The position numbers and the translations under genes are program-made. DNA of 64,000 nt, taken from assembly GCF_017916505.1 (NCBI RefSeq), contig NZ_JAFMSZ010000001.1, positions 1,116,001 to 1,180,000 of the forward strand, in the 5' to 3' direction. Numbering within the stretch: position 1 is the first letter of the stretch; each line of letters starts with the position of its first letter. This document shows, piece by piece, positions 4,921 through 54,882 of the stretch. Origin of the DNA: Naasia sp. SYSU D00057. Lineage in GTDB: Bacteria; Actinomycetota; Actinomycetes; Actinomycetales; Microbacteriaceae. Under the pieces are notes generated by a model that saw nothing but the letters and a program-made list of their open reading frames with translations, was not told the origin of the DNA and did no database searches.

Positions 4921-4989
4921 CGGACCATTGTCGCCCGCCCCGCCGACACCGGCGGTCGCGCCGGGCAGGGCCGAGCGGACGACCACCCC

Positions 4990-5239
4990 GTCCAGCAGGC
5001 ACCGCGCCCGGGCTCAGCAGGAACCCGAGGATTTCAGCAGGCGATGACCCGGTCCAGCGGCGCCGACCGCGTCCAGCAGGCACAGCTCCTGGCTTCAGCA
5101 GGCACCGAAGGGGTTCAGCAGGCAGAAGTGGCCTTGTTCTGCCTGCTGAACCCGCTCCGTGCCTGCTGAAGCCGTGACGTGTCGGCTGGACCCGCTGCGT
5201 GCCTGCTGAAGCCGCCGGATGCCTGCTGAATCCCTGCCA
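4990..5239. repeat. Phased inverted array A (CAGCAGG family)
   Basis: Seven forward copies of CAGCAGG or close variants begin at 4993, 5015, 5035, 5055, 5074, 5096 and 5116 (mean pitch 20.5 bp). Five inverted copies (CCTGCTG or variants) begin at 5142, 5162, 5183, 5202 and 5222 (pitch about 20 bp). The innermost pair, 5116 and 5142, forms a perfect 16-bp stem (5112-5127 with 5137-5152) around a 9-nt loop. The array fills most of the 395-nt gap between dinB and the small gene at 5316; I see no gene there. Four other gaps in the window carry the same geometry. Confidence 0.85.
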
Positions 5240-5315
5240 GCGCCGGGCAGGACTCCGCGTCCAGCGGCACCCGGGTGAGGGGGCCGTCCGGCGGCGCAGA
5301 GGTGCGCCGACGGCG

Positions 5316-5528
5316 TCAGGCGGCGCCGGCGAGCTGGGTCACGGCGACCTCGACGCTCTGCGACCAGGCGACGACGGCGCCCGAGGAGTCCTCGACGGCC
5401 CACGAGCCGCAGATGCAGGTGAGCATGAGGGCTCCCTCGCCGAAGTCGAGGGACGCGTCGTCGACGGTGAGCTCGGCGATCTGGTCCAGCGGGGCGCTGC
5501 AGACCTCGGCGATGTGCGGATCGTTCAT
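5316..5528 (-). CDS. Small conserved-looking protein, function unknown
   Basis: A 70-residue acidic protein starting MNDPHIAEVCSAPLDQIAEL, with a good ribosome site (GGAAGGGAG about 6 nt before ATG). It has three cysteines, two of them in a CIC motif near residue 38, and no membrane segment. I do not recognise a family. It lies 86 nt downstream of the FAD oxidoreductase of the polyketide operon on the same strand, so it could be cotranscribed, but it has its own ribosome site and no overlap. Its 3' end faces repeat array A. Codon use (GC-rich third positions) agrees with its being a real gene. Confidence 0.6.
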   Translation of the reverse strand: MNDPHIAEVCSAPLDQIAELTVDDASLDFGEGALMLTCICGSWAVEDSSGAVVAWSQSVEVAVTQLAGAA

Positions 5529-10281: not shown

Positions 10282-10352
10282 CGGCAGGACTTCCTGCACT
10301 CGGCAGGAGGAGATCCGCCGGAAAGTCCTGCCGGATGCGGGAAGTCCTGTCG
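10282..10352. repeat. Phased inverted array E (CGGCAGG variant)
   Basis: Two forward copies of CGGCAGG start at 10282 and 10301 (19-bp pitch). Two inverted copies, CCTGCCG at 10327 and CCTGTCG at 10346 (19 bp), follow. The innermost distance is 26 bp (10301 to 10327), identical to arrays A, B, C and D, although the word is CGGCAGG rather than CAGCAGG. The change is matched on both arms. A separate small hairpin, GCGGAAG...CTTCCGC, lies just before it at 10255-10273. Confidence 0.75.
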
Positions 10353-11163: not shown

Positions 11164-11199
11164 GTCGCCGCCTCCGTCCTTCCGCATCGGTCGACGACG

Positions 11200-11230
11200 A
11201 CGATACGAGTTGACGCTGCGTCAACCGCAA
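11200..11230 (-). promoter_or_regulatory. MerR-type promoter with operator in a 19-bp spacer
   Basis: Read on the minus strand: -35 TTGCGG (11230-11225), a 19-nt spacer, then -10 TATCGT (11205-11200). The spacer contains the perfect 15-bp palindrome TTGACGCAGCGTCAA (11224-11210). An overlong spacer filled by a dyad is the classic architecture that MerR activators bind and untwist, and it lies directly upstream of a merR/tipA-like gene, so autoregulation is the natural reading. Repeat array C starts 22 nt upstream of the -35. Confidence 0.85.
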
Positions 11231-11252
11231 GGGATCTGGTGCCGCTGTCTCT

Positions 11253-11342
11253 CGACAGGCATGAATGCCGTCAACAGGCAGAATCAGGGCGTTTCCGCCT
11301 GTTGGCGGGATTCCTGCCTGTTGGCGGGATTCCTGCCTGTTG
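11253..11342. repeat. Phased inverted array C (CAACAGG variant)
   Basis: Forward words CGACAGG (11253) and CAACAGG (11272) are 19 bp apart. Inverted words CCTGTTG begin at 11298, 11317 and 11336, 19 bp apart. The innermost forward-to-reverse distance is 26 bp (11272 to 11298), as in the other arrays. The G-to-A change against CAGCAGG is compensated on the other arm (CCTGCTG becomes CCTGTTG). The array occupies the gap between the merR promoter and the Gly-rich gene that ends at 11365. Confidence 0.8.
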
Positions 11343-11364
11343 AGGGAGAGAAAGGAGTGCCGAC

Positions 11365-12060
11365 CTAGAAGTCGCCGCCCCCGAAGTCGCCTCCGCCGAA
11401 GTCGCCCCCGCCGAAGTCGCCTCCGCCGAAGAAGCCGCCGTCGGAGGTGTCCCAGCCGCCGCCGCCGTCGCCGCCGTAGTCGCCGCCCGCGTCGCCGCCC
11501 TCGGCACCCGCGTCCCCGCCGTCGGCCGCGTCAGCGGCGTCCGCTCCGCCGTAGTCGCCCATGCTCGGGTCCGGCAGGAAGGCGCTCACGAGCGCGGAGC
11601 CGACCACGTAGCCGGCGACCGTGCCGAGCAGCGAGCCGCCCAGGATGGTGCCGAAGCTCGGACCGCCGCCGAACCCGCCGCCGCCGAATCCACCGCCGCC
11701 GGCGCCGCCGCCCGAGAAGCGGCGCTCGAGGAAGCCGGGCTGGCGGAACTCGGACCGGGTCGCCGAGCGGGCGAGGGACGCGGGGTCGTCGCCGGCCGGG
11801 GCCTCGGGGCCGTTGCGGAGCTCCTCGAACACCAGGCGCCGCTGCTCGGGGGTGAGCTGTGCGAACGCCTCGGCGTGCACCTGCTCGATCGTCTCCGGGG
11901 GCGCGGTGCGCAGCAGGTAGCGGTAGCGCTCGATCGCGATCTCGTCCTCGGATCGAACCGGTGGCCGGCCCTGACCGGGAGGGCCGTAGTTCACCGGCCC
12001 CTGCCGGCGGTACTGCTGGGAGCCGTCATCGCGGCCGAACAGGCGGTCCAGGAACCCCAC
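11365..12060 (-). CDS. Gly/Asp-rich membrane-anchored protein with C-terminal tandem repeats
   Basis: A 231-aa protein of unknown function. Residues 1-110 are soluble and charged (MGFLDRLFGRDDG, then SEDEIAIERYRYLLRTAPPE). A Gly-rich linker leads to one hydrophobic segment (TILGGSLLGTVAGYVVGSAL, about residues 138-157). The C-terminal quarter is almost only Gly, Asp, Ala and Phe, ending in four copies of GGGDF encoded by near-identical 15-bp DNA repeats (about 11368-11430). Similar actinobacterial proteins are sometimes labelled cation-transporting ATPase, but no ATPase motif is present. A TAGTGT box at 12096-12091 and an AGGAAGGA ribosome site precede ATG. The repeat tail is likely to vary in copy number between strains. 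Confidence 0.75.
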   Translation of the reverse strand: MGFLDRLFGRDDGSQQYRRQGPVNYGPPGQGRPPVRSEDEIAIERYRYLLRTAPPETIEQVHAEAFAQLTPEQRRLVFEELRNGPEAPAGDDPASLARSATRSEFRQPGFLERRFSGGGAGGGGFGGGGFGGGPSFGTILGGSLLGTVAGYVVGSALVSAFLPDPSMGDYGGADAADAADGGDAGAEGGDAGGDYGGDGGGGWDTSDGGFFGGGDFGGGDFGGGDFGGGDF

Positions 12061-18129: not shown

Positions 18130-18195
18130 CCGGCCAGTCAAGCAGCGGCGCGGACGCCGGGCAGCCGGGTTGACGGCGGGCAGCAGAATGGTCCG

Positions 18196-22662: not shown

Positions 22663-22755
22663 CAGCAGGAACGGAACGGCTCGGGCAGGCAGAAGTGACC
22701 CTGTGTCGCCTGCTGAGCGCCCGGAGTGCCTGCTGAGCGTGCGAAGTGCCTGCTG
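22663..22755. repeat. Phased inverted array B (CAGCAGG family)
   Basis: Forward words start at 22663 (CAGCAGG) and 22683 (degenerate, GGGCAGG), 20 bp apart. Inverted CCTGCTG starts at 22709, 22729 and 22749, 20 bp apart. The innermost distance is again 26 bp (22683 to 22709). The core shares GGCAGAAGTG with array A, including part of the loop. It lies between two convergent genes, ending 20 nt before the methyltransferase stop. Confidence 0.8.
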
Positions 22756-54458: not shown

Positions 54459-54882
54459 CAGCAGGAACGCGGGCGGTTCAGCAGGCAGCAGGGCCGCTCG
54501 GATGCCTGCTGAAGGCGATCCGTGCCTGCTGAAGGAGTCGCCCGCTCCTGCTCACGGCCTCCGGCGCGCCGTAGCGTCTCTTCAGCAGGAACTCCATCAG
54601 CTCAGCAGGAACTCGACGGGGTCCAGCAGGCACGCATGCGATTCAGCAGGCACCAGAGCCTCTCGGATGCCTGCTGAAGCCGTTCCGCGCCTGCTGAAGT
54701 CGCCCCGCATCCTGCTCACGGCCTCCGGCGGGCCGCACTGTCTCTTCAGCAGGAACTCAAGCCGTTCAGCAGAAACTCGGCGTCGTCCAGCAGGCGCGCA
54801 GACGGTTCAGCAGGCACCAGAGCCGCTCGGATGCCTGCTGAAGGCGTTCCGTGCCTGCTGAAGGCGCAGCCGGTTCCTGCTG
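54459..54882. repeat. Phased inverted array D: three tandem modules
   Basis: Three copies of a 164-165 bp module with cores at 54477, 54642 and 54806 (TTCAGCAGGCA). Forward CAGCAGG words start at 54459, 54479; 54583, 54603, 54624, 54644; 54747, 54767, 54788, 54808. Inverted CCTGCTG words start at 54505, 54525, 54547; 54670, 54690, 54711; 54834, 54854, 54876. Pitches are 20-22 bp and the innermost gap is 26 bp in every module. The two module junctions share CCTGCTCACGGCCTCCGGCG. The array fills the 577-nt gap between convergent genes; no gene is visible there. Confidence 0.9.

Follow-up and report, generated by a model that had tools for sequence, protein, structure and literature searches.

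The window analysed here is a stretch of 64,000 nucleotides from the genome of Naasia sp. SYSU D00057 (G000:C11:1116001-1180000; 3.36 Mb in 21 contigs), which belongs to the genus of Naasia and Amnibacterium flavum (Microbacteriaceae). Five of its intergenic gaps contain phased inverted arrays, in which a 7-bp word recurs at a near-regular pitch on one strand and is followed by inverted copies of itself (Table 1). A sequence-only reading of this DNA had placed the two innermost words exactly 26 bp apart, start to start, in seven cores, and direct reading of the five gaps confirms every one of them (5116/5142, 10301/10327, 11272/11298, 22683/22709, 54479/54505, 54644/54670 and 54808/54834), although the core proper measures 33 bp rather than the 26 bp by which it had been named. 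One word does recur within arrays, but it is not the same throughout: it reads GGGCAGG at 22683, CGGCAGG at 10282, CAACAGG at 11272 and otherwise CAGCAGG. The pitch, given as 19-22 bp, is mostly 20 in the CAGCAGG arrays (with some steps of 21-22 and others of 39-40 or 57-58) and 19 in the arrays at 10282 and 11253. Words 20 bp apart, or about 1.9 helical turns, share a face of the helix as had been proposed, but the 26-bp core spans about 2.5 turns and sets the two halves on opposite faces.

Array families and abundance

Three array families occur in this genome, CAGCAGGC (pitch 20), CAGCAGGACTT (pitch 19) and CAACAGGC (pitch 19), with the half-site consensus sequences CAGCAGGcaCgga (pitch 20), CaGCAGGACTTtCTGCa (pitch 19) and CAACAGGCAg (pitch 19), respectively. 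The commonest unit consists of four words at steps of 20-26-20. A set of 50 cores, 46 of them exact and 4 with one mismatch, was taken from the window and the first own-genome stretches; in it the spacers are only weakly conserved and conservation is absent outside the outer words. Conservation of the words themselves is partly a product of selection, because the set was fetched by exact core match. One of the mismatched cores, at window position 18181 within a gene, is taken as a chance match. Spacer identity is 0.73 between units of one locus versus 0.54 between loci, and this likeness of tandem units suggests that arrays probably multiply locally.

The exact core CAGCAGG-N19-CCTGCTG occurs 72 times in the genome, compared with once for the reversed pattern, and perfect 20-26-20 four-word arrays occur 49 times (control 0); the spacings are thus commoner than chance, the opposite of the shuffled-sequence frequency that would have counted against the sequence-only reading. 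With the gap allowed to range from 6 to 36, CAGCAGG cores total 82 (control 12), about 72 of which lie at gap 19 when the two counts are compared, and all 16 CAACAGG cores have this gap (control 0). Elsewhere in the order, 296 sampled genomes, none of them from the genus, lack the perfect unit. When the window is scanned word-blind for W, W, W', W', with up to 3 mismatches allowed, a pitch of 16-26 and a core of 20-35, the matches at core 26 and pitch 19-22 are the seven arrays and one 3-mismatch match at 5325. Each other spacing yields at most 5 matches, and shuffled sequence a mean of 0.07 per spacing (27 trials); many of the matches at other spacings (pitch 20, cores 20-32) are probably the same arrays in shifted register.

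In a collection of 84,980 species, possibly lacking the records closest to the window itself, the exact four-word unit turned up at named loci in 24 stretches, all from Naasia or Amnibacterium: 14 from uncultured Naasia, 6 from Naasia sp. SYSU D00948, 3 from Amnibacterium flavum and 1 from N. aerilata. CAGCAGG cores number 26 in an uncultured Naasia (G008), 18 in A. flavum (G002), 10 in Naasia sp. SYSU D00948 (G004), 5 in N. aerilata (G001), 1 in G003 and none in G005, G006 or G007; the reversed pattern occurs at most once in any genus genome.

Table 1 Phased inverted arrays of the window (window coordinates)
Feature	Position	Strand	Composition and setting	Identified by
Array 1	4993..5228	.	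CAGCAGG words, 6 forward and 4 inverted; gap flanked by two minus-strand genes	Direct reading of the gap and word-blind scan
Array 1, complete 20-26-20 four-word unit	5096-5168		Core 5116-5148	
Array 2	10282..10352	.	CGGCAGGACTT family, pitch 19, core 26, single four-word unit; similar to arrays at the second own-genome nuclease	
Array 3	11253..11342	.	CAACAGG family, pitch 19, core 26, one additional inverted word	
Array 4	22663..22755	.	CAGCAGG family, inner left word GGGCAGG, 3 inverted words; convergent genes either side	
Array 5	54459..54882	.	Three units of four words each, at 54459-54531, 54624-54696 and 54788-54860, spaced by about 165 bp, with extra words; convergent genes either side	

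Nuclease genes bracketed by arrays

Outside the window, an array-rich stretch of the same genome contains a gene for a DUF559 protein of 278 aa (nuclease 1; L021:3385-4164, full length G000:C11:21784-22620) with arrays on both sides. The bracketing led to the prediction that the second family would likewise have a nuclease of its own, and a profile search then located nuclease 2 (G000:C17:61658-62470), whose flanks carry CAGCAGGACTT pitch-19 arrays; each of the two genes is thus bracketed by one of the two CAGCAGG families. Both related proteins are predicted to join an AbiEi-like DNA-binding module to a nuclease domain of the Vsr/I-Bth0305I type. Residues 7-177 are similar to AbiEi, and a Vsr-type catalytic domain with conserved acidic residues is present. 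A profile search of the Microbacteriaceae, scoring the best candidates per genome, found such fusions in 80 of 120 genomes and 60 of 85 genera, the entries from this genus being G000 and G004 only.

The DUF559 genes of the genus sort into classes by their N-terminal half. By inspection, arrays or single dyads flank 17 of the 18 in class A-C on both sides; L115 has them only upstream, and for L093 and L100 the downstream word occurs in one orientation only. Across Microbacteriaceae the bracketing inverted words are specific to each gene. Scored as a dyad of at least 8 bases on both flanks, bracketing is found for 14/18 class A-C genes, 7/12 of class D, 18/37 other family members and 3/19 genes outside the family, compared with 2/262 other genes. 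One of these two positives, L089:14619-15443, is itself a nuclease match (G046:C1:74634-75434), which leaves 1/261; mismatched flanks gave 8/192 and, in another set, 4/145. Slightly different flank limits gave 13/18, 8/12 and 15/30 for class A-C, class D and other family members. A dyad on one flank with the word on the other, at 11 bases or more, is present in 15/18, 8/12, 19/37 and 6/19 of the four groups versus 1/261; this cut-off was chosen after inspection of the data, because 124/262 other genes pass at 8 bases. The control genes come from the window, L077-L079, L081-L091 and L172-L179 only. Loci were available for 30 of the 33 DUF559 matches in the genus, three from G003 being left out; L156-L171 likewise fell outside the analysis, and L122 and L123 (duplicates of L100 and L106) and L211 (at a contig end) were dropped.

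Related nucleases also carry related words. Over 34 genes, protein identity correlates with word similarity (r = 0.355; 0.376 for the N-terminal half and 0.267 for the C-terminal half; 0/5000 permutations each), with the words of L093, L100 and L115 set by eye. A protein tree, whose word labels were trimmed or set by eye, places CARCAGG words in one clade of five and GATCAGG/GGATCCG words in one clade of six (both 100/99), and words of the AAATNNAGGA kind in a clade of six (92/98) as well as on unresolved branches. Dyads of the word GATCAGGA number 21 in G005, 16 in G004, 10 in G002 and 5 in G001, each of which has a nuclease bracketed by GATCAGGA; for G005 and G002 these counts take in the arrays flanking the nucleases. 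Elsewhere the dyads number 3 in G000, 2 in G006, 1 in G003 and none in G007 or G008 (reversed control 0). Their core gap depends on the family: 16 in 19/21 (G005), 26 in 15/16 (G004), 5/5 (G001) and 3/3 (G000), and 15 or 16 in 8/10 (G002). The spacing of the innermost words is 24 or 34 bp in GATCAGGA families, and 26 bp is specific to the three own-genome families.

On the accepted view, repetitive extragenic palindromic (REP) sequences owe their spread to a transposase of their own, and the two form the textbook case of an extragenic repeat in bacteria coupled to a single enzyme. Array geometry, dispersal, the bracketing of nuclease genes, the word-protein correlation and the predicted fold are observed here, and binding, cutting and copying by the protein are inferred. 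We propose, with a probability of about 60%, that a dedicated nuclease docks at the window arrays as double-stranded DNA, array and nuclease forming a system organised like REP and transposase and unrelated to it. The AbiEi-like winged-helix module would recognise the 7-bp word, with the Vsr/I-Bth0305I-type domain as its fused nuclease, and monomers would occupy words spaced by about two helical turns, coming together head to head at the dyad. That the nuclease binds the arrays is probable. The sequence-only reading had itself suggested sites for a DNA-binding protein, and the fixed words and spacing, the free spacers and a candidate binder bracketed by the same arrays support this indirectly. 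The odds are about even that the nuclease also drives array spread: the enzyme, or repair of its cuts, might copy and tandemly multiply arrays where harm is small, and each nuclease-word pair would diverge together. The dispersed copies lie chiefly at gene 3′ ends.

The fit of word and nuclease is looser for CAGCAGG: class A genes were seen in G000, G008, G002, G004 and G007, yet G007 lacks an exact core, and G001 has 5 CAGCAGG cores with no class A gene seen. Such co-occurrence counts across the genus are provisional, because a PF04480 search missed nuclease 2, which the A1 profile found, and others may be missing. A gene inherited jointly with its flanks would yield a word-protein correlation as well.

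The CAACAGG family resembles the flanks of a nuclease of G004 (L120). A search with the L120 protein returned only the two known genes of our genome, none bracketed by CAACAGG, and the 16 CAACAGG arrays therefore look orphaned. The three own-genome GATCAGGA dyads (G000:C11:424572-424613, G000:C11:428933-428974 and G000:C16:120798-120839) have gap 26 and a common GACACGCCG centre, like the dispersed ones of G004 and G001; despite them, no nuclease bracketed by GATCAGGA was found in this genome. A class D DUF559 gene (L098, G000:C11:1367672) has dyads of CGGAAAGTGGCAACTCG on both sides, and AAAGTGGCAA is absent from the window. The nuclease reading frames of L094 (G002) and L110 (G008) appear broken, with dyads of their word elsewhere in those genomes.

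Genomic location and competing explanations

With genes called by a codon-usage finder trained on the window, 48 array loci from the fetched own-genome stretches and the window, array 4 being too degenerate for inclusion, fall into 24 convergent, 20 codirectional and 2 divergent gaps, one gene (the chance match) and one stretch edge. The 46 classable loci include those at the nucleases. Among 155 other gaps, 39 are divergent (p = 0.0014) and 26 convergent (p = 4e-6).

Arrays also lie directly upstream of the nuclease genes, where they could act as AbiEi-style operators through which the nuclease represses its own gene, the dispersed copies being incidental or a titrating sink. AbiEi and Rv2827c autoregulate through promoter inverted repeats (PMC7319586). 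We consider operators unlikely, since arrays lie downstream of the nuclease gene too and 44 of the 46 loci are convergent or codirectional; with 2 divergent, few arrays occupy divergent-promoter positions.

Slightly less likely still, the arrays could be bidirectional terminators or mRNA 3′-end stabilisers formed by nested hairpins, with bracketing serving to insulate single-gene units. The convergent excess is what this would predict, 18 of the 27 cores in codirectional gaps lie closer to the upstream stop, and predicted single-strand folds are strong (z of -1.5 to -11.4 in 10 sequences), as expected of any inverted array. If the arrays were hairpins, however, the spacers in the two halves of an array should resemble each other more than spacers across arrays do. 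Pooled sets do give pairing signals, in our pitch-19 arrays (outer spacers z 3.15, inner z 2.43) and in relatives (pitch 20, inner z 3.75 and outer 1.73; pitch 19, inner z 2.02). After splitting, none is left in our pitch-19 set or in two relative sets of 16 and 6 pitch-20 arrays; the split of relatives by species left out their 8 pitch-19 arrays and the few Amnibacterium pitch-20 arrays. Complementarity beyond the family consensus was absent from all five family or species sets (three own families and two relatives; p = 0.13 to 0.98). Words and spacing are fixed and spacers do not covary; the arrays therefore resemble DNA bound by a protein more than stems in RNA, words being kept where pairing is not. 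A scan limited to loops of 3-8 found no terminator-like match at the five window arrays, and a T-run (5 T in 8 bases) is absent from 13 of 14 array or unit ends. Structured RNA or a terminator was rejected as a candidate on the covariation and T-run results, and the structured-RNA element raised by the sequence-only reading finds no support in the spacers or in an Rfam gathering-score scan of the window, which gave 0 matches. That scan also speaks, for RNA families, against all sites belonging to a known repeat family. Insulation would moreover leave unexplained both the lack of bracketing at 260/261 other genes and the change of word with protein.

The arrays differ between relatives at orthologous junctions. 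The junction corresponding to window 4950-5315 is about 12 bp in G004 and about 30 bp in G001, neither with an array, and in G003 it holds an array of GATCAGG and GGATCCGG words. At window 11187-11365, three relatives were compared: a CAGCAGG array is present in G004 and a dyad of another kind, GATCACGGAGA, in G001, and G006 lacks either. The G002 orthologue of the 4950-5315 junction (L176) carries a different inverted repeat, CCGCCCGTTGAGCGAAGCGAAACGAAGG, which may represent another dispersed family. A mobile element spreading between genes, the second proposal of the sequence-only reading, thus fits the pattern (dispersed, lineage-specific, with array types differing at one junction between species). 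This pattern, with the turnover and the local tandem copies, is also what miniature transposon remnants mobilised by another transposase would leave, the nuclease gene being a passenger between copies. We regard this as improbable. Conservation stops at the outer words, whereas miniature inverted-repeat transposable elements have terminal inverted repeats and target duplications; the relatives are too distant to reveal the latter. Y1 HUH transposases (PF01797; other transposase families were not searched) are absent from 9/9 genus genomes, with positive control matches in 5 of 14 named genomes, and individual nuclease genes from several classes each have a different bracketing word, which is unexpected of a passenger. 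REP elements mobilised by RAYT enzymes were rejected as a candidate on the same Y1 result. Sites of an unrelated chromosome-organising or nucleoid protein would likewise be phased, palindromic and intergenic across the chromosome, but this is very improbable given that the exact four-word unit is found only in this genus and that the word varies between species and paralogues with the bracketed nuclease. Clustered regularly interspaced short palindromic repeats (CRISPR), which have direct repeats of some 20-50 bp and unique spacers of like length, were rejected, in line with the sequence-only reading, as the words are only 7 bp, the halves are inverted and spacers within a half are 12-13 bp.

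Known systems and further arrays

The proposed docking-site system shares its plan with "REPtrons", REP/REPIN sequences and their TnpA-REP (RAYT) enzyme: the gene for the enzyme lies between its repeats, tens of further copies are dispersed outside genes, and repeat and enzyme diverge together (general background and PMC8266576). Both the bracketing and the dispersed extragenic copies are found here. In contrast to REPtrons, the genus lacks a Y1 transposase, the enzyme has another fold, and a fixed word repeated in phase, in which no stem covaries, takes the place of the REP repeat. AbiEi, of the type IV AbiE toxin-antitoxin system, likewise binds inverted repeats whose centres lie 26 bp apart (PMC7319586), whereas here the AbiEi-like module is fused to a nuclease domain and arrays flank the gene on either side and recur at many further loci. 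In our genome no AbiEii nucleotidyltransferase toxin lies beside the two nucleases, whose neighbours encode a Der-like GTPase, a glyoxalase, an SdhB-like Fe-S protein and a BrkB-family protein. Unlike I-Bth0305I and Vsr, the nuclease is encoded by a stand-alone gene on the chromosome, accompanied by repeat arrays (no search for introns, inteins or methyltransferase partners was made). VsrA of Caulobacter, DUF559/Vsr-like, has the DUF559 domain in common but is linked to a cytosine methyltransferase, and the available text of PMC12907096 describes no repeat arrays.

Tentatively, and at somewhat less than even odds, we suggest a second, independently evolved repeat-and-nuclease system, made up of a large family of AbiEi-Vsr fusions across Microbacteriaceae, many with their own short word in inverted arrays or dyads around the gene, dispersed over the chromosome where tested, with word and DNA-binding domain matched and arrays of paralogues replacing each other at shared intergenic sites. 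No earlier description of such a system was found in the literature searched, which excluded bioRxiv and most subscription journals. If correct, repeat-nuclease partnerships would arise repeatedly, here with a repressor fold of the antitoxin type joined to a nuclease domain of the homing type; DUF559 proteins with an AbiEi-like N-terminus, a large and unstudied family, would gain a role, and a class of intergenic repeats in Microbacteriaceae would be explained. The many matched word-protein pairs would also offer a data set on how winged helices choose a DNA word.

A search of viral contigs with a single pattern matched 126 stretches, none of them confirmed. Adjoining a long own-genome array of seven cores, six exact and one of gap 18, is a gene for a 176-aa protein (L024:2356-2886) without a Pfam match, which is perhaps, judged by eye, AbiEi-like without the nuclease domain. 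Phased inverted arrays with the words GAGACTTGG and CGAGAAACCAC and cores of 20 and 22 also occur in G046 (L088:13627 and L088:15696), away from the listed nuclease matches.
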